Shown: positions 11,641 to 44,325 of the stretch, piece after piece | Layout of the letters: every line of letters starts with the position of its first letter | Position numbering within the stretch: the first letter of the stretch is position 1 | Assembly: GCA_034638255.1 (NCBI GenBank) | Contig: JAWPGT010000092.1 | Location: 1 to 64,000, forward strand | From: Coprinus comatus | Taxonomy: Eukaryota; Basidiomycota; Agaricomycetes; Agaricales; Agaricaceae | DNA: 64,000 bases | Direction: 5' to 3' | Notes under the pieces: model-generated | What the model saw: only the letters and a program-made list of their open reading frames with translations | Databases searched by the model: none | Told to the model about the DNA's origin: nothing | Translations under genes and position numbers: made by a program

Positions 11641-14600
11641 TTGTCTAGTGTTAATAGGTTTGCTGTACTACCCGTAGAAGAAATAAACGAGACCACTATT
11701 TCCCCACCTACACCCAAACCTATAGCCGTGTCCAAACCCCGCCGACCTCACTGGGAATGTTGTTACCTCCCGACCCGGTATGTCATTTCATCCACCACCC
11801 CCGCCAATGCCCTGAAACTGCCGATCGACCTTGAAACCACCGACACCGGAGTCAGATTTTCATCGGAAGCACTTGTGGACTCTGGTGCCACTGGTATCTT
11901 CATCGATCGGGACTTCGCTCGTCAACATAAGCTCACCACCCGCCGTCTATCACACCCAATCCCTGTCTTCAATGTTGATGGCACCCCGAACGAAGCTGGA
12001 GAAATCGCCGAAGTCGTCGATATGGTTCTCCGATACAAGAATCATTCCGAACGTGCAGTCTTCGCTGTCACCGGCCTCGGAAAGGAGTCCGTTATACTTG
12101 GCTATACTTGGCTCCACGCACACAACCCCGAAGTCGACTGGGTAACAAAGGAAGTCAAAATGTCGAGGTGTCCGAGGACTTGCGAAGGTTGCCGACAGGA
12201 ATACAAGGAAGAGAAGAAGTTCCAGGAGAAGGTGCTAAGGGTCTGCACTTCAGGACCCTTTCCAGTGCTTGTGGAAGAGGTGAATGAAGAAGAGGATGAA
12301 GAGTCGGAAGAAGGAGTTAGTTGGTCAGAATTGGAGGAAGGAGATCGGATTTTTGCTGCCATCCCTCGCTCATCAGTTCTTTCGGTTTCGGAACAGATTT
12401 CAGCTACTGGTACTCTATCACAACAACTTGCCGAAGCGCATCGGAAGAATACCGCGACTGCCAACCTCGGTTTCAAGGCTCATATTCCCAACTACCTACA
12501 CGACTTCGAAACTGTTTTCTCTGAGGCTGCTTTCCAAGAGCTCCCCGAAAATCGGCCTTGGGATCACGCTGTTGAACTCGTCCCAGGTGAAACTGCCAAA
12601 ACCACCAAGGTCTACCTGATTTCGCCGAAAGAACAAGCCGCACTTGATGAGTTCCTCCAAGAGAACCTTGCTTCGGGAAGGATTCGCCCCTCAAAGTTGC
12701 CGATGGCAGCCCCCGTTTTTTTCATTAAAAAGAAGGATGGTTCACTTCAGTTGGTACAAGACTATCGGAACCTCAACACCATCACAGTGAAGAACAAGTA
12801 CCCCATCCCACTCATCTCTGAAATTGTTTCGAAACTGCGGGGCACAAAATACTTCACCAAACTTGACATCCGATGGGGCTTCAACAACATCCGTATCAAG
12901 CCTGGCGATGAGTGGAAGGCCGCTTTCCGAATGAATCGGGGGCTCTTCGAACCTCTAGTGATGTTTTTCGGCATGACTAACAGCCCAGCGACCTTCCAGA
13001 CAGTGATGAACGACATCTTCCATGACCTCATCATGGAAGGAATTGTTATTGTCTACCTCGACGACATCCTGATCTTTTCGAAAACCCTGGAGGAACATCG
13101 GAAGGCGATCCGACGTGTGATGGAGGTACTCAAGGAACACAAGCTGTACCTCCAACCCAAAAAATGCGAGTTTGAGAAGCAGAAGATAGAATACTTGGGG
13201 CTGATCATTTCGGAGAACTGTGTAGAGATGGATCCAGTGAAGGTTGCAGGAGTTCGTGACTGGCCAATTCCGAAAAACAAGACAGAAGTTCAGTCTTTCC
13301 TTGGGTTTGCCAATTTCTACCGACGTTTTATTCGGGATTTTTCACACATCGGTCGGCTGCTCTTCGATCTAACCAAGTCCAGTACACCTTGGAACTGGGG
13401 CACTGAACAGCAGGAAGCCTTCGATGCTCTGAAGACAGCCATTACATCGGCACCGATCTTGTCTTCTCCCGACGACACCGCACCTTACTGAGTAGAGGCC
13501 GACAGCTCCGACTTTGCAACTGGAGCTGTCTTGTTGCAGCTTGCATCGGAAGACAACAAGTGGCACCCCATCGCATTCTACTCAAAATCGCTGTCACCAG
13601 TCGAACGCAATTATGAGATCCATGACAAAGAGATGTTGGCTATCATCCGATCACTCGAAGAGTGGAGGCACTTCCTGGAGGGCAGTGAACACAAGGTAGA
13701 AATCTGGACGGACCACAAGAACCTCGAGTACTTCATGACTGCGAAGAAACTCAACCGCCGACAAGCCCGCTGGTCCCTCTACCTGTCCCGGTTCAACTTC
13801 TCACTTCATCACCGACCAGGCCGATCCATGGGCAAACCCGACGCACTCTCCCGACGGGCCGACCACGGAACTGGCAAGGACGATAATGACAACCTCACCC
13901 TCCTCCCTCCATCGCTATTCGCTGTTCGAGCCCTTGAAGGTGTCGTTTTGGTCGGAGAAGAGCAGGATGTGTTGCGAGAGATCAGACGTGGTAATCGGGA
14001 TGGTGAACAAGAGGAGGCAGTGGCGAAGGCAGCGCGGGAGTTGAAGTTGTCAAAGTCAAAATCAGTTAAGAGTTCTGAATGGTCGGAGGATAATGGGTTG
14101 CTACTTCATCGAGGTAAAATCTACATCCCTAACATCCCTGACCTTAGACGTCGCATCGTGGCCCAACACCATGATTCCAAAGTCGGCGGACATGCAGGAC
14201 GCTGGAAGACCCTCGAACTCGTGGGTCGGAACTACTGGTGGCCTTCTATGTCTTGTTACATCGGTCAGTATGCCTCTACTTGTGACTTGTGCTTACGGAC
14301 AAAGCCCCACCGACACCGACCAGTCGGCGAACTTCACCCACTTCCCATCCCCGATGCCCGCTGGGACACTATCAGCATTGACTTCGTCGTCGAACTCCCA
14401 GAGTCCAACAGTTATGACGCGGTGTTCACAGTTGTCGATTCAGTATCAAAACGAGTTCATTTCCTGCCGACCCACACGACTTGCACTGCTGAAGGTGTCG
14501 CCCGACTCTTCCTCCACAACATCTGGAAGCTCCATGGCCTACCTCAACGTGTTGTCTCCGACCGAGGCCTGCAGTTTGTGTCGGAATTCACCCGCGAGTT

Positions 14601-16057: not shown

Positions 16058-18056
16058 CATCAGGAAATCGCGCATTTGCTTGGGTCTACCTTAGGGTTGC
16101 TTAGACTACTTGTTGTACTTGTACATCCTTGGTGAAAAATGTCCCAAGGTACTCTGAGGAGCTTTTTAGTTCCAAGTTAGGTCAAGGATAGAACCAAGTA
16201 AATCCTCAAGCTTTACTTGCTCACGAAAAATGTTAAACTTTAGTTTACATTATTAACACTATTTGTTTTTGTTCTGATCAATGATTATTGATCATCACAT
16301 ATGTTTTGAAACTTTTGATGTTATCAAATTTGGACTTTGCAAAAAAAGCGGATGAGTGTGACATCCTACTCTCCTTGTCACACATCACTCACTCCACGTC
16401 ACATCCCAATGGCAACAATCTCACGAGATCATAATACCTCTGCCACATCATTACATCCCTATTCACTCAATTCCTAACAAAATCTCACGTTTTTAGGCTC
16501 TCTAGAATCGTCTCACCGTTTTGCTTCGAATGACGGCGGTTACGCGTCGCGTGGTTTAGTACTTGTACTATAACAGCCACTTTATTGAACAAGGTAAGCA
16601 TACAATGTTTTTGGTCTGTTGTACTCATTTCATCACGCTTTGGCACGCGTCTTGGCTCTTTGGAACCGGCTCTTTTTTCCGCTTCGAACAAGCCTAGCCA
16701 CACGTGCTATGGTTTAATTCTCATGGTATGGTATGAATAATATTGGTATGTCATCACTCTGTAGTATCCTGAGGCTGTCTCACTCATTTCTTCACATAGA
16801 GACATTTACCTAGGCTCGTTTAGACCATTCGTAACTCCTCCATGACTGACCGAAGTTGATTGCGCTGTGGGGAAGGATTGGAGGTGTAGTGAGCAATACT
16901 CTGGTACTAGGTCCCAGGTGAGTCACTCTAACTAAATATGTAATATTTCGCTTGATACATGTTTAATCCTTATGATTTTAGGCTCATTACAACCGTCTTG
17001 ACAACGCCGTCTGAACAGTGCCATCCGCACTCCGCACCACCCAAAACTCCGGTGCCGACACACTCCTTTCTGGTGAGTTACCATATATGTTCCTCCCCAA
17101 CTAAATATTTAATATGTCACTCAATATCTATGCACTCCTTTTGTATCTAGGCTCATTAAAATCACCTAAATGACGCCGTTCGAACGATACCATTTACACT
17201 GCACACTGTCCAAAACCCCTGTGCCGACATGCACATCTCTGGTAAGTTACCACATATGTTCCTCCCCAACGAAATAACTGATATATCATTCAATATCTGT
17301 GCACTCCTCCTGTACTTAGGTTCGTTAAAACCGTCTAAACGGCGTTGTTACAACGATACTATCCGCACTACGTACCCCTCAAAACTCATGTACCGACATG
17401 CAGATCTTTGGTAAGTTACTATATATATATTACTCTCCAACTAAATAACTAATAACTCGCCCATTTCTTATCCAATCCTTTTGTGTTTAGGCTCGTTATA
17501 ACCACATTAACCGCCCCTTTCCAATGCTGGTACTCGCACGCCGTACGGTCGAGTATCATGCTTCGTGTGATGTGATCTTTGTAACACATCATCCAAGGTT
17601 CGCTTTTTCTCTCCATTTTATGTTAATAATTACTTATTTCACTATTACAGTCTCTATGCTGATACAAAGGTATAAGAATGTATTAATACTGTAGACTAAG
17701 TTAGTATATCACATGTATTATTACAACTTCAATGATATTTTTTTTTATTGTCCTTATTCCCTTACTTGGTGTGACCTTGAGAGTACTTGAATTATCCCGA
17801 AAATGCAAATAAAATCCTGTAAAATATAATTACAAGGTAGGAAAGTAATTTTTATGTGTTGTCCAAGTACGTTCAAAGCTATTCAAGTACACCCAAGTTA
17901 GAGGGACCTACTTGGAGCTCCTTGGGACAAATTTTCCAAGGAACTCCAAGGATAATTTTACTCTTCTTTGAATTCTATTGGGGTGTACTTGGAGCTCCTT
18001 GGATGCCTTTCTAAGTAACTTCAAGTACCTCCAAGGACATGCGCGAAATCCTGATG
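16058..18056 (+). mobile_element. TIR element C, left copy (forward)
   Basis: 1,999 bp inside the pol gene of A. Ends are inverted: CATCAGGAAATCGCGCAT at the left and ATGCGCGAAATCCTGATG at the right (two mismatches). Removing it, with a 2-bp TA duplication as one reading, rejoins the pol frame (SMT/NDDLALS). No transposase frame is visible, so it is non-autonomous. Subterminal regions are rich in CCTTGG, CAAGTA and the palindrome TTGGAGCTCCTTGG. The middle carries six segments bounded by splice-like TAG/G and G/GTRAGT signals. The family is unassigned; a CAGG...CCTG core with an AT duplication reads equally well. Confidence 0.8.
16982..17490 (+). repeat. Three tandem units of about 169 bp with exon-like cassettes
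   Basis: Units start at 16982, 17151 and 17320. Each opens after TTAG or CTAG with G(C/T)TC(A/G)TTA, holds exactly 91 bp, and ends in TG followed by GTGAGTTA or GTAAGTTA. An AT-rich, intron-like spacer of 78-80 bp follows. Similar cassettes of other lengths flank the array at 16497-16593, 16814-16917 and 17491-17597. The right copy of C has one unit fewer, which accounts exactly for its being 170 bp shorter. Confidence 0.85.
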
Positions 18057-20909
18057 CTAACGATGATCTTGCTCTCTCTGCTTCACTGCGAAAACCGACG
18101 GTGGCCGATGCCCCTGTCACTCCATCTCTTTCCGACGTCTCCGACATCAATCCTTCCGACTCGTCTTCCGACAATCTTGTTTCTTCTTCTGTCACTCCTG
18201 TAGGGTGCTCTGCCTCTGCATCACCGATCAAGCCACACATCAGTTTCGTGAATGCGATTGCTTTCGATTGTGCTCGCCGACTGCCTGGTTCGCAACAGTT
18301 CACGTTGGATCTCAAGTCTAACGTTCGAGCTGCCGCTGCCGCTCTTAAATCTGCTTCATCAGAACCTCCTGACCTTTCTGCCATCCCTTCCGAATATCAT
18401 GAATTCGCTGACGTGTTCAGCAAAGCCAAAGCTGACACGTTACCACCTCACCGACCTTACGACCTTAAGATTGATCTTGAGGAAGGTACCTCACCACCTA
18501 TCGGTGTGCTCTATTCGCTGTCGCAAATCGAGCTTGAGGCCTTACCTGAGTTCATCGACGAGAACTTAACTTCTGGTTTCATTCGACAATCTTCTTCTTC
18601 TCATGCCGCACCCATTCTTTTCGTAAAAAAGAAGGACGATTCCCTCCGACTCTGTGTTGATTTTCATGGTCTTAATCGCATCTCTAAAAAGGACCGTTAC
18701 CCACTTCCGCTCATTTCCGACCTCTTAGACTCCCCCCAAAAGGCTCGTATCTACACCAAGATTGACCTCCGTCATGCTTATCACCTCGTTCGCATCGCCG
18801 AAGGCGATGAATGGAAAACGGCTTTCCAAACTCACTACGGTTCGTTTGAATGGCTTGTCATGCCATTCGGCCTTACCAACGCTCCTGCCGCTTTTCAACG
18901 TTTTATGAACGATATCTTTTCGGATATGCTTGATGTCTGTGTAGTCGTCTATCTCGACGACATTCTCATTTATTCCGACGACATTGCTTCTCACAAAAAA
19001 CATGTCCGCGAAGTTCTCAAACGTCTGCGCAAGCATGGTCTTTATGCTCGTGCCGACAAATGTGAATTTCATTCCGAATCGGTGGAATATCTTGGCTACA
19101 TTCTCGGCTCTGGAGGTCTTACTATGGCTCAGGACAAGGTTCAAATTATTCAAGACTGGCCCAAACTGAAAAAGGTAAAGGACATTCAATCTTTCTTGGG
19201 TTTTGCGAACTTCTATCGGCGCTTTATCTATGGTTATTCCGACATCGTTGTCCCTCTGACAAGGCTCACTCGAAAGGGTGTTGCTTGGTCGTTTGACGGC
19301 GAGGCTCGGGATGCTTTCAATGCTCTCAAAAAAGTGTTTACTTGTGCTCCTGTGCTTACTCATTGGGTCCCTGATGCTCAAATTATCATCGAGACCGACG
19401 CTTCTGACTACACTCTTGCTGCTATCATTTCTTTACTTACCGACGACGGTGACATCCACCCTGTCGCTTTCCACTCCCGTACCTTTTCCGCTCCCGAACT
19501 CAACTACGACACCCACGATAAAGAACTTCTCGCCATCTTCGAAGCTTTCCGAATCTGGCGACACTACCTTGAAGGAGCTCCGCTCCCGATTGATGTTGTC
19601 ACCGATCACAAAAATTTGGAATACTTTTCTACTACTAAGGTTCTTACTCGTCGGCAAGCTCGCTGGTCTGAGTACCTCTCTGGGTTTAATCTTGTTATTC
19701 GCTTCCGACCTGGACGCCTCGGCACTAAGCCCGATGCTCTTACTCGTCGGTGGGACGTCTACCCTAAGGAGGGGGGAGTCGGCTATGCAGCCGTTAATCC
19801 TCACAACTTCCAACCGGTCTTCACTCAAGACCAACTTGCGGCCTCTGTTCGTGCTACGTATCTTCTTACTCCTGCTCTTCGCGCTTCTGTTATTGCTGAC
19901 ATTTCTAAGCTTCATTCCGATATACTCTCTTCTCTTTCTTCCGATGCCGAGATCGCCGAACACCTTGTCGAACCGACAGGTCGGTGGTCTAGGGACGATC
20001 ACAGATTCCTTCGCCTTGACGGCAGGATCTACGTCCCCGATGCTGAGAACCTTCGGGTTCGGGTTATGCAATATCATCACGACCATCCCCTTGCCAGTCA
20101 TTACGGTCAGAATAAAACCCTTGAACTTATTTGTCGAGACTATACATGGCCTGGTATTCGGGAAATGGTCAAACTCTTTGTCAAGAGTTGTGTAACCTGT
20201 ATGCGATCCAAACCACAGCGTCATCGGCCTTATGGCTTGCTTAAGCCGCTTCCGATTCCTTCTCGTCCTTGGGATTCTATCTCGATGGACTTCATTGAGA
20301 AACTTCCCGCTTCTTCTGGCTTCGATGCGATTCTCGTTGTCGTTGACCGATTCACGAAGCAAGCTGTTTTTATTCCTTGTCATGATACAATTACTTCCGC
20401 TGACTTAGCCCGACTATTCGTTATCCATGTGTTCTCGAAGCATGGTGTACCGTCCCACGTTACTTCCGATCGTGGTTCGGAGTTCGTTTCTCATTTCTTC
20501 CGATCGCTTGGTGAAGCATTGAACATGCGTCTTCATTTCACTTCGGGTTATCACCCCAAAGGTGATGGTCAAACCGAACGAACTAACCAAACTCTTGAAC
20601 AGTACATTCGGATCTACTGTAACTATCAGCAGACCGACTGGTCGGAACTTCTTCCACTCGCCAAGTTCGCGTACAACAATGCGCCGAATGCTTCCACTAA
20701 TGTATCACCATTCTTTGCTAACAAGGGTTACCATCCTAATATTACAGTTTACCCCGAACGCGACCTGGTGTCCGCTCGAGCTCATGAATTCACGACTAAT
20801 CTTGATGAGTTGCATGCGACTCTCAAGTTAGAGATTGCTTCCGCTCAGAAAAGGTATCAGGCTTCCGCCGACGCAAAGCGACTTCCGTCGCCGAGCTTCA
20901 AAGTCGGTG
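18057..20909 (+). pseudogene. Element A pol, RT-RNase H-integrase core
   Basis: An uninterrupted frame between the two C copies. It has an RT with APILFVKKKDDSLRLCVDFH, fingers/palm and VVYLDDILIYSDD (about 18940-18980), the connection motif QSFLGFANFYRRFI, and RNase H (IETDASDYTLAAI near 19390, YDTHDKELLAIF). The integrase follows with an H-H-C-C region (HHDHP...CVTCMRSKPQ) and a DDE core (SMDFIEKLPA, VTSDRGSEFVS, GDGQTERTNQ). It ends at SPSFKVG, where the right C copy starts. No stops were noticed, so the damage is purely by insertion. Confidence 0.92.
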
Positions 20910-22738
20910 CATCAGGATTTCGCACATGTCCTTGGAGGTACTTGAAGTTACTTAGAAAGGCATCCAAGGAGCTCCAAGTACACCCCAATAGAATTCAAAG
21001 AAGAGTAAAATTATCCTTGGAGTTCCTTGGAAAATTTGTCCCAAGGAGCTCCAAGTAGGTCCCTCTAACTTGGGTGTACTTGAATAGCTTTGAACGTACT
21101 TGGACAACACATAAAAATTACTTTCCTACCTTGTAATTATATTTTACAGGATTTTATTTGCATTTTCGGGATAATTCAAGTACTCTCAAGGTCACACCAA
21201 GTAAGGGAATAAGGACAATAAAAAAAAATATCATTGAAGTTGTAATAATACATGTGATATACTAACTTAGTCTACAGTATTAATACATTCTTATATCTTT
21301 GTATCAGAATAGAGACTGTAATAGTGAAATAAGTAATTATTAACATAAAATGGAGAGAAAAAGCGAACCTTGGATGATGTGTTACAAAGATCACATCACA
21401 CGAAGCATGATACTCGACCGTACGGTGTGCGAGTACCAGCGTTGGAAGGGGCGGTTAATGTGGTTATAACGAGCCTAAACACAAAAGGATTGGATAAGAA
21501 ATGGGCGAGTTATTAGTTATTTAGTTGGAGAGTAATATATATATAGTAACTTACCAAAGAGCTGCATGTCGGTACATGAGTTTTGAGGGGTGCATGGTGC
21601 GGATGGTATCGTTGTAACAACGCCGTTTAGACGGTTTTAACGAACCTAAGTACAGGAGGAGTGCACAGATATTGAATGACATATCAGTTATTTCGTTGGG
21701 GAGGAACATATGTGGTAACTTACCAGAGATGTGCACGTCAGTACATGAGTTTTGGGTGGTGCGGAGTGCGGATGGCACCGTTCAAACGGCGTCGTCAAGA
21801 CGGTTGTAATGAGCCTAAAATCATAAGGATTAAACATGTATCAAGCGAAATATTACATATTTATTTATAGTGACTCACCTGGGACCCAGTACCAGAGTAT
21901 TGCTCACTACACCTCTAATCCATCTCCACTGCACAAGCGACTTCGGTTGGCTATGGAGGAGTTATGGGTTGTTTAAACAAGCCTAGGTACACGTCTCTAT
22001 GTAAGGAAATGAGTGAAGCAGCCTCAAGATACTATTAGGTGATGACATACCATTATTAGCCATGTCAAACCATGAGAACTATGCCATAGCACGCATGGCT
22101 AGGCTTGTTCGAAGCGGAAAAAAGAGCCGGTTCCGAAGAGCCAAGACGCGTGCCGAAGCGTGATGAAATGAGTACAACAGACCAAAAACATTGTATGCTT
22201 ACCTTGTTCAATAAAGTGGCTGTTATAGTACGAGTACTACCCCACATGACGCGTAACTGCCACCATTCGAAGCGAAATGGTGAGACAATTCTAGAGAGCC
22301 TAGAAACGTGAGATTCCGTTAGGAATTGAGTGAATAGGGATGTAATGATGTGGCAGAGGTATTATGATCTTGTGAGATTGTTGCCATTGGGATGTGACGT
22401 GGAGTGAGTGATGTGTGACAAGGAGAGTAGGATGTCACACTCATCCGCTTTTTTTGCAAAGTCCAAATCTGATAACATCAAAAGTTTCAAAACATATGTG
22501 ATGATCAATAATCATTGATCAGAACAAAAACAAATAGTGTTAATAATGTAAACTAAAGTTTAACATTTTTCGTGAGCATGTAAAGCTTGAGGATTTACTT
22601 GGTTCTATCCTTGACCTAACTTGGAACTAAAAAGCTCCTCAGAGTACCTTGGGACATTTTTCACCAAGGATGTACAAGTACAACAAGCAGTCTAAGCAAC
22701 CCTAAGGTAGACCCAAGCAAATGCGCGATTTCCTGATG
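20910..22738 (-). mobile_element. TIR element C, right copy (reverse)
   Basis: 1,829 bp, the reverse complement of 16058-18056 with scattered differences and one 170-bp cassette unit fewer. Ends are CATCAGGATTTCGCACAT and ATGCGCGATTTCCTGATG. The flanks GTCGGTG and TGATCAAGC overlap by TG; taking the element out restores the integrase frame FKVG/DQAFVKAQFF. It is thus an independent insertion into the same host gene, in the opposite orientation. Confidence 0.8.
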
Positions 22739-31993: not shown

Positions 31994-34900
31994 ATGGATG
32001 TTCCTCTCTCCTGCCTACGTTCTCCAGCGCTTCCCAATAATGTTGCACTCGGTCAAGCCATCTCTGAACGACTGGCAAGCTCAACGCATATAACCTCCTT
32101 GTTGGACTGTCTCTGTAGGACCTCAAGGCCCGCCATCTTCTCTCCAGACAGCCAACGAGCTCTCACACATGAAGCTCTCTGGTCATTTATCTCGTCTTTC
32201 TCATTACCTCATTCTCCCTCTCGACCTCGCTTGGGCCCCAACGACCGCGTACTCGTCGTGTTGCCCAATGGTCCTGTTAACGCGGTTGCCATTCTTGCTA
32301 CTGCAAGTTATCACACATGCGCTCCAATCAATGCTTCTTGTACACCAACCGAACTTCGAGATGACGCGAAAAAGTTGGGCGCCAGGGTCATCATCGCTTC
32401 GAGGGATTCAGTTGAGCGTTTAGGATTAGGAGAACTTCAGGAAGAGTTGGATTGTGATATTGTGTTGGTCGATTCTCTCAACGATGAACCAGCTGGTATC
32501 TTCACAATGACGTGTTTGAACAACGAATCAATTATCTCCGCAAGCCCATCTAACCTTCACGGGTTGGATGATCAATCACTAATTCTGCAAACATCTGGGA
32601 CCAGTGGGAAGAAGAAGGTTGTTCCATATACACTGCGAGCTTTAGTTATTGGAGCTTGGGCTGTGGTGCATTCATGGGGGCTAACAGAATGCGATGTCAA
32701 TCGTAAGTCCGCTTTCTATTGACATGGTTGTCAGCCTGACCTTGTGTTCTTAAAACTTCAGTCAATATGATGCCACTGTTCCATGTCGGAGGCTTCGTCA
32801 GAAGTCTCTGCGCTCCAATACTCTCGGGAGGCAGTGCAATTATGTGCACAGGATTTGATCCCATTGTTTTCTGGAATCTTGCTGTTCAACTGCGAACGAC
32901 ATGGTACGCTACTGTTAAGCTTCGTTGGTCTATATGCTACTGATTCTTACTTAACCTAACTAGGTATTATGGTGCACCTACTATCCACCATGCCATTCTA
33001 TCCGCAAAACCGAGTTCTATTGATGTAAAAAATGATTTGCATATTCGGATGGTCTGTAACGCAGCAGGTGGACTTTTGCCTTCATTAGCTGTGGAGATGA
33101 AAGAGACTTTCGGAAACGCTGTTATCCTCCCGTCATACGGCATGACAGAGTGCGTCATATTCATCTTAGCTTTAAATAACGCTAACGATGGACTTAATGC
33201 GCTGTTTTGTCCTCTTCCCCACACACAGATGTATGCCTATAGCTTCTCCGCCACAGAACTACACTCTTAACCGACCTGGTTGTTCGGGGATCCCTTGTGG
33301 TCCAGAAGTCACTATAAGGGTTCCATCCAACTTGGAGCAAGAAGCACAAATAGGTCATACTGGCGCTGTTGCTGTTCGAGGATTTCCTACCTTTTCGGGA
33401 TACGAAGTTTCACCAGATAGAAATGTTCCATTAGATACGAGTTGTTTTACTAGCCAAGGATGGTTCGATACAGGTGATATGGGTTATGTAGATGATGATG
33501 GGTATGTTGCTCTACTTTTTATATTTAAGAGGTTTAGAATCGTGCTCATTTCGGGATTGTTTATATATAGGTATATCTACATAACGGGACGATCGAAAGA
33601 GATCATTAATAAGGGTGGGGAAGTGATATCTCCATTCGAGATTGAGGAGGCAATCGCCATTGCCGCTAAGGATCGTGTGACTGTCAGTCCTTTTCAAACG
33701 TTTTAACCTTGCTAGTTGACTTATAGTTCATGGTTGGAATATTCTAGGGCGTCCTAGCGTTTGCTGTCGAGCACGATGTTTTCCAAGAGGCGATTGGAGT
33801 TGTCATAGTTTCCGCAGCCCGTAAGCCGAGAATAGGACTTTCTCAGCTTCAAGATTGCATTCGGTATGTTCATTTTAAACCATAAAAATATACCTTTAAT
33901 CATGTTCGTTAGTGATCATCTACACCCTTCAAAATGGCCGACGGTCATTGTTTATATGAATGATGTACCAAAGAACAAGTGGGTTTAGAAGTTTGCTGAC
34001 GAATTAGTATTAGTGCTCATGTTTTACAGCACTGGAAAAGCTGTTCGTATCAACCTAGCGAAAAGGCTTAATCTTCCAAAGTTTTCAGATGGCTTACCAG
34101 CACATCAACGTCACTTCGAAGCTATTTGTCTCTCCTCAGAAGGCGGCGTTCAGAAACCTATACCCTGTTCTCCCGTTACGCCCACTACAAAACCTTTGGA
34201 AGCGCTATTAGAGCGCAGACAAGATATTAAGGACTATGCTTTTAATCATTCCTCGGACGGGTCTCCGGAGCTCTATCTTAGTACCGAACCAAATTGTCCT
34301 CTGGATTCGGAAGCTGTCAAATCCATCCTCAGCGCCGAAATTGACGGATATCTCATTCCTGAAGTTGTTTATGTTCTTGATGGTTTCTTGGGACGCCTTA
34401 AATCTGGAGAAGTTGACTTTGCCGATGCCAGAATGAACTCTGCACAAAGCAAAGCTGCTGTAATGTCTCGGACAGAACTTCAAATACGTGATCTCGTTGC
34501 TCAGCTTCTTTCGATGGAGTCCAGTAATATATCTTCACAATCGGATTTTTTCTTGTTGGGAGGGAACTCGTTACTACTTGGGAAACTTGCTTATCAGATT
34601 CGCAAGGAAACTGGTTCACAGATTGGAGTTTCGGCACTTTTTACCAATACTACTATTGCCGGAATTGCTTCTCTTGTGGATTCAAATTCCAGTAAAGCTC
34701 CAAGTCCATTAACGTTGTCTCCGGACGAAAAAGACGAGAATAGGCATTCAGCGGCTACTTCTATCACTGCTTTCAGTACTTTTGATTACGACTATGATCA
34801 GGAGTACGAGAATATGGAAAGGAAGAACGCTCGTGGACAGACTCATCCCTTATGCTTAATAATTCAAGCTATTCCACTCATTTTCTTTTACCCTTTAAAG

Positions 34901-37900
34901 GCTGCTTTAACTTGTGAGTGATTAATTTTATTATTGTTCTTAAGGACGTTTGATGACAATGATTTTGTTATGTATGTATAGGGTCACTCCTTTTATTTAT
35001 TCTTTCTTATATTGCACAATTTTTGGATGGGGGATTTTGGACCAAGTTGGGCACCTTAATTTCTGCTATTTTGGCATCTAGATTTGTCGTCAGAGTCTTG
35101 TGTCCCGTATCGGCCATTCTGTTCAAATGGGTTGTTGTTGGAAGGTATAAGCCCGGCACGTATCGATTGTGAGTGAATCGCATTGTATTATCTTTGTATC
35201 CTCTACTAATTTTTATTATCATGTTAGTTGGTCTGGGTATTATCTGCGGTGCTGGCTCGTGGATCAGTCTCTGAGGTGCGCTATTGTTTACTTCTTACCT
35301 GGTTAAATATATCTCATTCAGTGCATCGTAGATCTGCTGGTAAAGGTGTCTTCGCCGTCCACCCCTCTCTCTCTCTATTTTATTATCGTCTTCTGGGAGC
35401 CAATATCGGCAAGAATGTTGTCATTGACCCAGGAGCCAAACTCGGGGAATACGATCTAATTACCCTCAATGATGGTTGTCGAATCGACAAATCGCATATA
35501 AGAGGTTTCTGTGTCGAAAGGGATGGATACTTTCGTTTGGACAATATTGTGATTGGACGATGTGCTGTGATCAATACGTATACGACAATTGCTCCTGGTG
35601 CGGTTATTCCTGATAGTGCTGTTTATGGTCCACATTCTTCCTCCAATGAACCACCTTCGCCAAAATCTTATGCCGCGTATAATCGAACGTTATTCCCTGA
35701 ACCTCATCTTGCGCTTCAAATGTTCGTCGCTTGGCCAATTATCGCCTTTGTTATTTGCTTGTCATGTAAGTAACATGTGTTCTCGTGGTTTTTTAAAAGT
35801 GAAACTGACTTTACTTAGATGTTCCATGGATTATATGCATCTGGTTGATGATTACTGAAGTTCAAATTAGCACACAAGGTTTGAACGCATTAGGAGCTGT
35901 TGTTTATTGGTTTGCGGATCCTCAACGAGTGGCATATCATGCTTTATCTCGAATTGTTAGGGCACTGTTTGCACCGATACTTCGAATGATGCTTGGGATC
36001 GCGGTTAAAAGGATTATGGGGCTCAATAAGGAATGTTCTTCTGAAGTGTTTACTCAAGGAATGCTTTTGAGAAGGTATATTAATACGACATTGATATCTG
36101 GAGAAACTTTTCATAAGGCGTTTTCGATCCTTGGGATTCATTATGAGATTGTTTCTGTGAGTTGTCCTTTTTTATATAAACCTTACCCCCTTGCTTTTGA
36201 AATGACTTGGAACACTAAACGTTGTGTAGATTGCATATAGAGCTATGGGCGCGAAGATTGGTAAAAGGATTTATTGGCCTGGTTCAGGAATTTATTGTCC
36301 CGATCCGGAACTTTTGGAAATTGGAGATGATGTTGTGTTTGGATCGCGTTCGGAGATATTTACTAGTGACCGTGTTGGATTTAAACAAGTCACTATTGGT
36401 GCTGGATGTGAGTTTGTTCTTTCTTTTTTAGTATTTTGTATATTCATTGCTAATGTTTTTTCGTGTGTTACGAATAGCGATGATTGCTGATCGTGTCGTT
36501 CTACTTCCTGGTTGTACCGTTGGAAGACGAACTGTTATGGGATCTGGTGCTCTTGGAAAACGTGATACCTTGTATGAAGATGGTTCGACATGGATGGGTT
36601 GTGGTGAGTTTTAAAATTGCGCATATCAGCGACAGTGCTGAAATAAATATTCAGAAAATGGGGATTCGATCTGCTTTGGAAAAAATGAGAAGGAGCTAGA
36701 TGATAAAGATACCACTACACCTTTCGGACGAGCCTTTTATCAAGGAAAAGCAGATTATTGGGTTTATCCTTATTTCTTGGTCCTTTTCAGCAATATCATC
36801 ATCACGGCTATTTCCTCCGCCTATTGGTCTATTAGTGCAGTTACTGCTGCACAGATCATACGTCACATCCACATCCAACTTAATTCCTTTAGTATCTTCA
36901 AACCGACTTGGTATCGGCTTGTGGTCCTCTATGGTTTCATCGCTTTATGCTTTATAGTCGTATTGAACATCCAAGCACTCATTGCATTGTTATGGACTAT
37001 CATCGTGAAGTGGTTGCTTATTGGGGAAAGAAAGGAAGGAAGATTTGAATGGGATAAGTCGAGTTATTGTCAGCGGTGGCAATTGCATTTATCCTTGTCG
37101 AGGGTGTTGTATAAAGGTTATGGTACTGGTGGTATACTTGGTCATCTTAATGGCTCGGTTTATATTATCTGGTATTTCAGAGCTTTGGGTGCTACCTTTG
37201 GGAAGAATTGTGCGTTGTTTGCTGGTGGTATCAGTGGTCTTTTGACGGAACCTGATCTAGTAGAGGTATGGTATTTGATTATTCACTTTCTGTTTTCTAA
37301 GCTAATGATTCTTGTTTCTCCAGATGGGCGATAACGTTAGTTTGGACGATTGTTCCGTTGTTGCACATATCAATTCTCGTGGAATCTTTGCATTGAACAA
37401 ACTCAAAATTGGAAGTGGATGTGCATTACGATCTGGTTCAAGATTATTATCTGGTGCTTCAATGGAAGATAGTAGTATGCTTTGTGAACATACACTTTTG
37501 GTTTCTGGTGATATTGCTGAATCGGGTCGTTGTTATGTTGGTTGGCCTGCTAGAGTGTTGGATAAGGATGGAGTGCATGATTATTCTGGGATTACTGGTG
37601 GTTCTGGTAACGGTCAACCTCAACTTATTTGTCCGGTTTGTAAACAGTTCCCGCAACATGGTGTTGTGGCTGTTTGTGGGCATTTGTTTTGTGATAGGTG
37701 TGTTTTTTTTACTTGACTTTCCCTCTCCCTCTCTCCCTCCCCCTTCATCCTTGTGGTCACGGCCCCTCCTCCCCCCTCCCCCACATACTCCCCCCCACCC
37801 GCTCGCTCGATATTGTTTGTGAAGATTAGTACTAACTCTTCTTTGTTTTTACAGTTGTATCCATCGTGTTCTTAAGAATAAGAGACGTTGTCCTATTTGC

Positions 37901-37975
37901 CGTATACCATCCTCACCAACCCAACTTCGCCAAGTCCGTCCGTCATTTGCGATCAGCGATAGTGAAGGTCACTAG
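31994..37975 (+). CDS. Adenylation-carrier-hexapeptide (Pls-like) synthetase fused to a RING finger
   Basis: Seventeen exons joined by short introns give 4,905 nt, a 1,634-residue frame without interruption. Residues 1-545 form an AMP-binding adenylation domain: LQTSGTSGKKK, SYGMTE, GWFDTGDMGYVDDDG, YITGRSKEIINKGGE and PKNNTGKAVR. A carrier domain follows with the pantetheine serine in FFLLGGNSLLLGKL (about residue 712). Next come about six hydrophobic segments interleaved with hexapeptide-repeat (left-handed beta-helix) stretches such as GANIGKNVVIDPGAKLGEYD and MGAKIGKRIYWPGSG. This is the A-T-membrane-tandem-domain plan of epsilon-poly-lysine synthetase and Pls/PosA proteins. Finally a C3HC4 RING lies at about 1573-1617: CPVC, CGH, FCDSC, CPICR. 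Exon 16 (37324-37697) encodes both the last hexapeptide repeats and the first RING half. Expected role: membrane-bound polymerisation or ligation of an amino or carboxylic acid; the product is unknown. Confidence 0.85.
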
Positions 37976-38799: not shown

Positions 38800-38848
<49 letters not shown>

Positions 38849-39018: not shown

Positions 39019-41195
39019 CTAATCTATGATATTTAGTTCTCTAAGACGAGCCTTTGCGAATTCGTCTTTGTATCTGTGCCATATCCTATTTCATTGTTAT
39101 TTAATTAGATATAAGCTGTCATAATTATGGAAGGGAGAAGAAAAAGAAACGTGCCTCGTAAGTTCATCGATATATTGTTCTTGAACTTTACGAACTTCTT
39201 CTAGTGTAGGTTTATCGCGTTGTATTACATGTATTGGTTTCCCAACTAGAATAATAATAATAAGAGCATCAGCATCTAGATGAAGAATTATAAATGTGGG
39301 TGTTAGGTACTTACTGACAACAACAATTCGTCTTCTATAAGGTAAAAGACCCAGGTTATCTAAATATATGTTTAGAATACCACCCATTCAATCTCTTTTT
39401 TCTTCTTTTTTTTTGTGATAGAAGGAAACAAAAACAAAAAACTCACAATTCAAAAGTCCACGACCATGAAATAAAGGAAGTGTAAATCCGAAAACAGATT
39501 GAAAATGTTTTTGAAGCGCATACACCGTTGTTCCTTTTTCATTCGGCATTTGTTCATAGATCTAAGAAGTGTATATTATTGAACGAATGAATGGTTATTT
39601 CATTAGAGGTATACGTACGTCATTCTCTCCGAATGAAAATACAGGCACTAAATCCGCTCTAAAAGAGGGAGGGAAAAAAAACATGAGTCATTCATTCATA
39701 ACTATGGAGGTATAAATGTTAACTTACCCATGTTGAATCGCAAGTTTAATAAAACCCAACCTACAAAGAAAAATCAATCAACACTTCATATCAAATCATA
39801 ACCCCAATCACCACCCCCCAAAACACATTCCTTTCAAACAAAAAAACTCACCTCTTCCTCAACGTCAAATCCGCAGTCCCAGGATGAGCACTCAAACTTT
39901 CCGCAGCACCACCAACAACAATCGTAATACTCTCTCCAGGTCCAGCTTTCAAAATATTTGAACAAGATTCCCTACTAACACTACAAATCCCCAAAGCCAA
40001 TAAAATATCACGATAGAATGGAACTTTGAAATTGGATGCTAATGTTAAAAGGTGTGGTTTTATTCCTGGGAATGATAATGAAAAGTTTGTTGCTTCGGTT
40101 CCAAATGTTACTAGTGCTCCCCTGTTGTTGTTGTTTTTTTGTTGTTGTTTTGTTTAGGAAGTTGTGATGGGAAATTAGGGATAGGTGGAAGATCATTTTT
40201 GTTTATTCGTTTGTTCATTTGATATTCGAGGATAGGTCGAGAATAAGGGAATAAGAAAGAAAAAACCATATAGCATCGCGTTAGATTCAAAGGTCCATCA
40301 TAAACAATCCATAGAAAATCAAAAAATGCACATACATTCCAATAATCCCTAAAAGAACACACACACATAAGTAAAAAATCAAACAATAACGGAATAAGAA
40401 GAAATAAACTCACCATGAGGATGATATCCAAACACATAAGGTCTATCCGGAGTCAAATCTGCTTCCTACAACAACAAAGTGAAAAAGAAAAAACAATGCT
40501 ATATTACCGATTCCAAAAGTCCCCAAATAAAAACACTCACTTTAAGAAACCTAAAACCAAAACCATCCAATACCAATATCCAAGTGTCCACATCCACATT
40601 AACATTAACATCAAAATTTTTCAGCATTACTTCCTCCAGAAATGAAACAAAAAAAAAAAAAAGCAAAACAACGTACGAAACAGGATAATACCCAGCAAAA
40701 TACCTCCAAAACACAATCTTCCTAACCCATTCACTCGATCTCCCTCCTCTTTCCGGTGCTTTATCCACATAATGTATCCAAAACATATAAACCACCAAGA
40801 AAGGCCACAGAAATGGGAAAGAGCTAATATTTGAATCAGTATATGTGTGTGAATTAGTTGGTATATTACAATTATAGTAATAAATAGGGGAAGATACGTA
40901 CCATAGTAGAAAGAAAGTGCAACAAGTGATAGCAATCATAATAGACCATGTTGCTACAGCTAGAGTCTGTAATCTTCTTTTCCTCGGTATCTTCGCGGGT
41001 ACAAAGCTAACAAGGCAACAAGTAAGCTTTCAACCGGTATGTTCATTACATCACCCAGATTCCAGAAGTTACGCACTCAATACCTGTGTTCAACGATGGA
41101 GTCTGTGCGAGGCTCGAGAGGCGCTCTTTGAGTGTAGCCATGGACAGTTTGTGAGAACCCCTCGAGAGCATTGTACGGAGGTTGGAATCCGTCAT
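39019..41195 (-). CDS. Diacylglycerol O-acyltransferase, DGAT2 family
   Basis: Start ATG at 41195 (MTDSNLRTMLSRG). Exons follow with ATLKERLSSLAQTPSLNTGI, FVPAKIPRKRRLQTLAVATW and two membrane segments, then WIHYVDKAPERGGRSSEWVR, YVFGYHPHG with the catalytic HPHG, VPFYRDILLALGICSVSRES, VVGGAAESLSAHPGTADLTL, NLGLLPYRRRIVVVVGKPI and the end IWHRYKDEFAKARLRELNII. All DGAT2 blocks are in order. The enzyme esterifies diacylglycerol with acyl-CoA to triacylglycerol at the ER/lipid droplet. Introns are many and short; the last begins with GC rather than GT (exon ends at 39155). Its 5' end is only 168 bp from the stop of the Cdc48 gene upstream on the same strand. Confidence 0.9.

Positions 41196-41363: not shown

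Positions 41364-44325
<2,962 letters not shown>

Follow-up and report, generated by a model that had tools for sequence, protein, structure and literature searches.

A RING finger at the C-terminus of an NRPS-like synthetase in Coprinus comatus and other mushrooms

Does a gene of the mushroom Coprinus comatus encode a synthetase that ends in a RING finger and, if so, what would the RING do there? The question arises from the window analysed here, the 64,000 nucleotides (nt) at positions 1 to 64,000 of contig JAWPGT010000092.1 (assembly GCA_034638255.1), in which one gene appears to join an enzyme resembling nonribosomal peptide synthetases (NRPSs) to a C3HC4 RING. We are nearly certain that this fusion is genuine and yields a single protein. 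The gene is composed as follows:

31994..37975, forward strand: whole gene, ATG to TAG, 17 exons, 1,634 amino acids (exon joining; match along its length to the Macrolepiota fuliginosa protein P0001)
32231..33403, forward strand: core of the adenylation (A) domain, residues 80-404, crossing introns (PF00501, E 4.8e-40)
34481..34675, forward strand: carrier (T) domain, residues 686-750, with the GGNS serine (PF00550, E 3.9e-11)
34847..37551, forward strand: three repeats of a helix pair and then a left-handed beta-helix, residues about 808-1546 (PF00132, hydropathy, model of the relative P0037, fold matches)
37552..37629, forward strand: variable linker from GWPA to the RING, residues 1547-1572 (per-column counts)
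37630..37697, forward strand: first part of the RING, ligands 1-5, in exon 16 (ligand pattern, Pfam)
37698..37854, forward strand: last intron, 157 nt, splitting the RING after ligand 5, with TACTAAC at 37830-37836 (splice sites, partial models)
37855..37900, forward strand: second part of the RING, ligands 6-8, in exon 17 (ligand pattern, Pfam)
37901..37972, forward strand: tail, with Arg1611 at the linchpin position and then a motif around L-x-[RK]-[IV]-x-[PL]-S-F (column counts)

When joined, the exons amount to 4,905 nt with a sole stop at the end, and all 16 introns have GT..AG borders, so that the single 17-exon frame proposed in a first-pass annotation of the sequence stands. P0001 is 73% identical to the Coprinus protein over 1,521 columns and covers the full length of the gene, the 48-nt exon 10 being the sole exon without a match of its own. 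The junction lies within exon 16, where 26 residues with neither a methionine nor a stop lead from GWPA (1543-1546) to the first RING ligand; the earlier claim that no in-frame ATG separates the two parts is thereby confirmed. Likewise, the complete RING that had been read from the last two exons, behind the hexapeptide repeats, is supported by its ligands and by Pfam. Residues 1573-1610 contain CPVC, CGH, FCDSC and CPIC, followed by R, with all eight C3HC4 ligands in the right order and spacing, and four Pfam families match above their cut-offs (PF13923, E 1.1e-8; PF13639, 2e-7; PF13920, 2.6e-7; PF00097, 9.1e-7), while PF14634 and PF13445 match below theirs. A six-ligand half-RING pattern, run over all six frames of the window, has a single match, in exon 16, although its sixth position falls on a Cys codon within the intron; the actual ligand 6 is encoded by exon 17. 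Together with the Pfam matches, this rules out a RING by chance.

Whether the same join occurs in related species, a check proposed with the first reading, can be answered from a phmmer search with residues 1480-1634, which returned 236 proteins at E <= 0.001, of which the best 120 were taken. A further search, for which the C-terminal part of the Taiwanofungus protein P0067 served as query, added 21 new proteins (best 120 of 234 taken); none of their gene models includes a RING. The resulting sample of 142 rows, 141 relatives and the Coprinus protein, represents the best-scoring part of the family. A full eight-ligand RING is present in 65 rows, a partial or decayed one in 21 and none in 56, where the last group may include truncated gene models; these counts follow a looser rule for remnants than a first, stricter sorting of 121 rows, which gave 65, 18 and 38. 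Outside Coprinus, the full RING is found in 64 relatives from 21 named genera: Macrolepiota, Athelia, Hypsizygus, Agrocybe, Infundibulicybe, Panaeolus, Crassisporium, Flammula, Mycena, Roridomyces, Crepidotus, Favolaschia, Psilocybe, Paramarasmius, Moniliophthora, Lentinula, Collybiopsis, Taiwanofungus, Cyathus, Flagelloscypha and Marasmius. The fusion is therefore not peculiar to the Coprinus genome; of the earlier interpretation, the reality of the fusion stands, and the E3 activity and control of its own turnover suggested there are putative. A search with the RING alone (Athelia P0004 as query) gave three matches among 32 candidates, all from Athelia, and is too insensitive to be informative on other groups. 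Within the Coprinus genome, only one copy of the gene was found, the six other matches being weak pieces of the A domain (four), the carrier (one) and the RING (one), which rules out a recent duplication. No donor of the RING was identified in this genome, its next two RINGs having 26% and 36% identity.

Among the 86 rows with any RING, and with gaps set aside, the ligands are conserved (C1 86/86, C2 85/86, C3 86/86, H 84/86, C5 84/86, C6 70/76, C7 71/76, C8 69/72), counts that are partly circular, since the rows were chosen by their ligand pattern. Positions between ligands 1 and 2 and after ligand 7 of a RING usually face the ubiquitin-conjugating enzyme (E2); here, the former is M, I, L or V in 80 of 86 rows, and the latter is Pro in 67 of 74. 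Further along, the tail residue F1626 is present in 66 of 73 rows. The linker is variable, with 15-50 residues between the Trp of GWPA and the first Cys in the 65 rows with a full RING. The solved sequences nearest to the RING are those of the ubiquitin ligases (E3s) RNF4 (49 bits), a RING2/BMI-1 chimera (45 bits) and COP1 (38 bits). RNF4, RING1B/BMI1 and COP1 share the RING pattern, the best stretch of the chimera being in its BMI-1 part, and none of them is known to have a synthetase part.

The last intron deserves attention, as it divides the RING. With 157 nt, compared to 49-79 nt for the other 15, and 76% pyrimidine, it is unusual for this gene; a TACTAAC lies 18 nt upstream of its end. 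If it were left unspliced, the frame would read FCDRCVFFT-stop, leaving half a RING. Eight of the 21 partial models in the family break off just two residues past ligand 5, at the position of the Coprinus intron (Leucoagaricus, Agaricus, Infundibulicybe, Psilocybe cubensis, Hebeloma, Agrocybe, Cyclocybe and Collybiopsis luxurians), and a ninth, from Mycena citricolor, stops one residue after it. A retained phase-2 intron with a GTAAG or GTGAG donor would add one codon ending in G and then a stop; the eight models thus look like the same intron read through. Their final residues (K, R, S, R, A, E, V and S) can all be encoded by codons ending in G, although 13 of the 20 amino acids would allow it. 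Judged from these sequences, the relatives would share the intron position, and the RINGs of the eight stopped models are probably complete in the genome.

What kind of enzyme carries this RING? With PF00501 and PF00550 above cut-off in one chain and the carrier serine present, the protein has the A-T layout of NRPS-like enzymes. All 63 aligned relatives share this serine, and the synthetase motifs appear intact by eye (TSGTSGKKK, the GWFDTGD stretch, a lysine near residue 536 and the carrier GGNS). PF00132, the hexapeptide family, matches above cut-off at residues 1219-1249, and Pfam finds no domain in the Coprinus protein beyond A, T, hexapeptide and RING. For the part behind the carrier, we used the AlphaFold2 model of P0037, a partial relative of 1,102 residues (mean predicted local distance difference test score, pLDDT, 82.9). 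It contains six long helices in three pairs (283-314/323-356, 509-541/562-593 and 780-815/828-863). A beta-helix stretch rich in strands comes after each pair, and the RING of the model (1044-1081) lies within blocks of pLDDT 82-93. Among the best 50 fold matches per program are NRPS A-subdomains and carriers, beta-helices of the serine acetyltransferase and GlmU type, and a chain of complex I. The absence of RING structures from these matches does not speak against the RING. P0001 had no match in an anti-phage library.

This architecture resembles that of the epsilon-poly-L-lysine synthetases. Bacterial Pls and the fungal Epls of Epichloe festucae are described with A and T domains, behind which come six helices in the membrane and three C-terminal domains in tandem (PMC7179176), which is the layout predicted for the mushroom enzyme: A, T, and then three repeats of helix pair and C-domain. 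The three tandem repeats of Pls and PosA are indeed found in the P0037 model. However, the RING is not part of the Pls/Epls architecture as described there, whereas many proteins of the mushroom family end in one, and TIGR02353 (Pls/PosA) scores the five relatives on which it was run (P0001, P0033, P0043, P0067 and P0107) at 163.7-186.5 bits, well below its cut-off of 423.1. Moreover, the mushroom A domain is instead nearest to acyl-CoA (coenzyme A) synthetases. With P0001 as query, its closest sequence matches among solved structures are 6qjz (186 bits), 5ie0 (176), 8aff (162) and 4fuq (132), of which the first three are oxalyl-CoA synthetases, a group that includes plant AAE3 and yeast Pcs60; malonyl-CoA synthetases are also among the nearest. 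These solved chains have 503-543 residues and lack a carrier, a membrane part and a RING. The aligned stretches of the putative oxalate-binding pocket differ from those of P0001 (HVHG to HVGG, SCSAS to NAAGG, TEATH to TECMP). Our guess is that the enzyme activates an acyl acid and not an amino acid.

To follow the RING through the family, we built a FastTree phylogeny from the 142 rows, using 1,535 columns of the part common to all and leaving out the tail; it is midpoint-rooted without an outgroup, so that the direction of change is a matter of interpretation. The Coprinus protein clusters with those of Macrolepiota, Agaricus, Leucoagaricus and Leucocoprinus (support 100). RINGs and remnants are spread over most groups of Agaricales and also occur in Athelia and Taiwanofungus, with 12 changes on the tree between RING or remnant and none; Armillaria and its tree neighbours Guyanagaster, Hymenopellis and Mucidula are RING-less among the rows examined. 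The identities of RING and core are correlated (Mantel r 0.66, 0 of 1,000 permutations as high). We infer a single old fusion, early in mushroom evolution, followed by repeated loss. On the tree, the decayed RINGs of Lentinula adjoin the Lentinula relatives P0063 and P0078, which have all eight ligands. The Taiwanofungus camphoratus protein, P0067, is the only polypore-named RING protein among the matches listed and groups with RING-less Plicaturopsis, apart from the other polypores; gene transfer or an old paralogue is possible.

In some RING-less relatives, a heptad-like charged tail takes the place where the RING would sit. In 12 of the 16 RING-less tails of at least 70 residues, the helical periodicity is stronger than in 450 or more of 500 shuffles, a comparison that somewhat favours the real tails, as the shuffles were scanned at half as many starts. 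The carriers are 11 of the 15 RING-less polypore rows (P0107, P0122, P0125, P0128, P0129, P0131, P0133, P0135, P0136, P0137 and P0140) and Jaapia (P0099), with tails of 84-107 residues. Two Schizophyllum rows, Grifola and one Dichomitus row fail the test, for which the tails of Pilatotrama and Hermanssonia are too short. The C-terminus thus looks like a swappable module.

How might enzyme and RING work together? We picture a membrane-anchored, one-module NRPS-like synthetase, whose lineage would have gained a C-terminal RING once, early in mushrooms. Its A domain would activate a carboxylic acid, the carrier serine would hold it and the beta-helix repeats would hand it to an acceptor at the membrane. 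In the predicted topology of the Coprinus protein, six membrane helices, being even in number, would place the RING on the cytosolic face of the membrane, together with the A and T domains. There it would recruit an E2 and ubiquitinate the synthetase itself or membrane partners, and so set the lifetime of the enzyme. Membrane-bound RING E3s such as Hrd1 and Doa10 offer a likeness of working principle only, a RING tethered to a membrane protein. Doa10 is described with a non-Arg linchpin (PMC7667886), and the Doa10/Ubc6 pair provides a precedent for a membrane RING E3 acting with a membrane E2 (PMC7667886, PMC12326332). The mostly non-basic linchpin of the mushroom family would suit an E2 of this type with high basal activity, and a membrane-bound synthetase could share Doa10's E2 partner. 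Neither Hrd1 nor Doa10 is known to have an adenylation or carrier domain.

That the RING is a working E3 is plausible from its conservation pattern, with ligands and usual E2-facing positions kept next to a variable linker, and from its nearest solved sequences, which belong to E3 ligases. The E3 activity, its target, its E2 partner and the single origin of the fusion are all putative, and for the full mechanism, the likeliest of the readings, in which a cytosolic E3 on a membrane enzyme controls the turnover of that enzyme or its partners, we consider the case evenly balanced. Several observations weigh against it. A basic linchpin after the last ligand is typical of active E3s, albeit not required; Coprinus has Arg1611, but of the 64 family RINGs in which this residue can be read, no more than 5 have Arg or Lys (M 24, S 12, T 10, F 5, R 4, A 4; V, L, E, K and H one each). 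The RINGs of Coprinus' own genome that match the pattern, from ten loci scanned, are unlike the family in this respect, with Arg in four of four. The 56 RING-less rows, and the ligand losses in Lentinula raphanica (P0084), L. aff. detonsa (P0091) and Crucibulum laeve (P0014), imply that the core enzyme can do without a RING; the Lentinula remnants represent RING decay in progress. In the 387 pairs with core identity below 60%, the correlation between RING and core is gone (r -0.06), so that for the deepest splits the Mantel test gives no demonstration of joint inheritance, although the signal in these pairs may be saturated. Finally, in the P0037 model, the second helix pair opens with a helix interrupted at residue 528 (509-527, 529-541), and hydropathy alone does not resolve six clean helices.

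Of the other explanations, the one that survives best makes the RING a pseudo-ligase: a zinc-bound module for dimerisation, structural in nature, which aids assembly of the synthetase and has no role in ubiquitination. The scarcity of basic linchpins would fit, as would the heptad-like tails of polypores and Jaapia, as if oligomerisation devices had been swapped, and TRIM proteins provide a precedent of RINGs without ligase activity (PMC11992055, PMC6487577). The kept E2-facing positions speak against it, as does the Arg linchpin in Coprinus, Macrolepiota, one Mycena and Flagelloscypha; besides, the 12 heptad-positive rows are closely related, and the shuffle scan was lenient towards them. On balance, we hold this explanation to be rather unlikely. 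More doubtful is an E3 directed at other proteins of the membrane, in which the synthetase part would serve as a sensor or supply a product by which the RING is steered. Both halves seem live, judging by the intact synthetase motifs, and the tethering recalls Hrd1 and Doa10; the protein has no further Pfam domain, however, and many relatives do without the RING. Slightly less probable still is a splicing switch in an enzyme that is its own ubiquitin ligase, in which the transcript with the shared phase-2 intron retained, ending at once where the donor is GTAAG or GTGAG, would give a stable, RING-dead form and the spliced one a self-destructing form, the shifted linchpin being an adaptation to a Ubc6-type membrane E2. 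The idea that a synthetase gene was merged with a neighbouring RING gene, by gene model or assembly, could draw on the C/T-rich last intron, roughly double the length of any other in the gene, and on annotated relatives that stop mid-RING, but, judged unlikely already by the first-pass annotation, it is very improbable and in effect ruled out by the join within exon 16, its recurrence in 64 other gene models from 21 genera, the TACTAAC branch site and an exon 17 that supplies ligands 6-8 in frame.

Around the gene, a scan of frames in the window, which is only partly annotated, gave these features:

11641-13491, forward strand: retrotransposon frame with reverse transcriptase, upstream of the gene (frame scan)
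17972-21058, forward strand: retrotransposon frame with reverse transcriptase, RNase H and integrase, upstream of the gene (frame scan)
39097-40153, reverse strand: exons of a diacylglycerol acyltransferase (DAGAT), convergent with the synthetase (frame scan)
41639-43541, reverse strand: exons of an AAA ATPase, Cdc48-like by eye (frame scan)

The scan also includes a DJ-1/PfpI-like frame, and a GA dinucleotide repeat lies just 3' of the gene, at about 38802-38845. No biosynthetic cluster was recognised among the eight frames scanned, one of which had no match. Cdc48 acts in the ubiquitin-dependent removal of membrane proteins; the adjacency of the AAA ATPase is probably due to chance. In the literature, judged by titles and the beginnings of abstracts of the papers listed and with most subscription journals outside its coverage, we found no description of an NRPS-like enzyme ending in a RING, nor did term searches in PMC2823734, PMC9893682 and PMC11186289 show a mention of a RING-ended synthetase; TIGR02353 was not found by name in the literature searched.

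For the family, the recurrence of the join points to an enzyme architecture that is conserved across many mushrooms and has the appearance of a long-kept design, and it suggests that some public gene models, several in number, break off halfway through their RING. If the RING is active, these fungi would possess an enzyme for a small molecule or polymer that carries its own ubiquitin ligase and thereby ties metabolite output directly to protein turnover. Relatives that naturally lack the RING, or have a coiled-coil-like tail in its stead, offer a way to test what the RING does.

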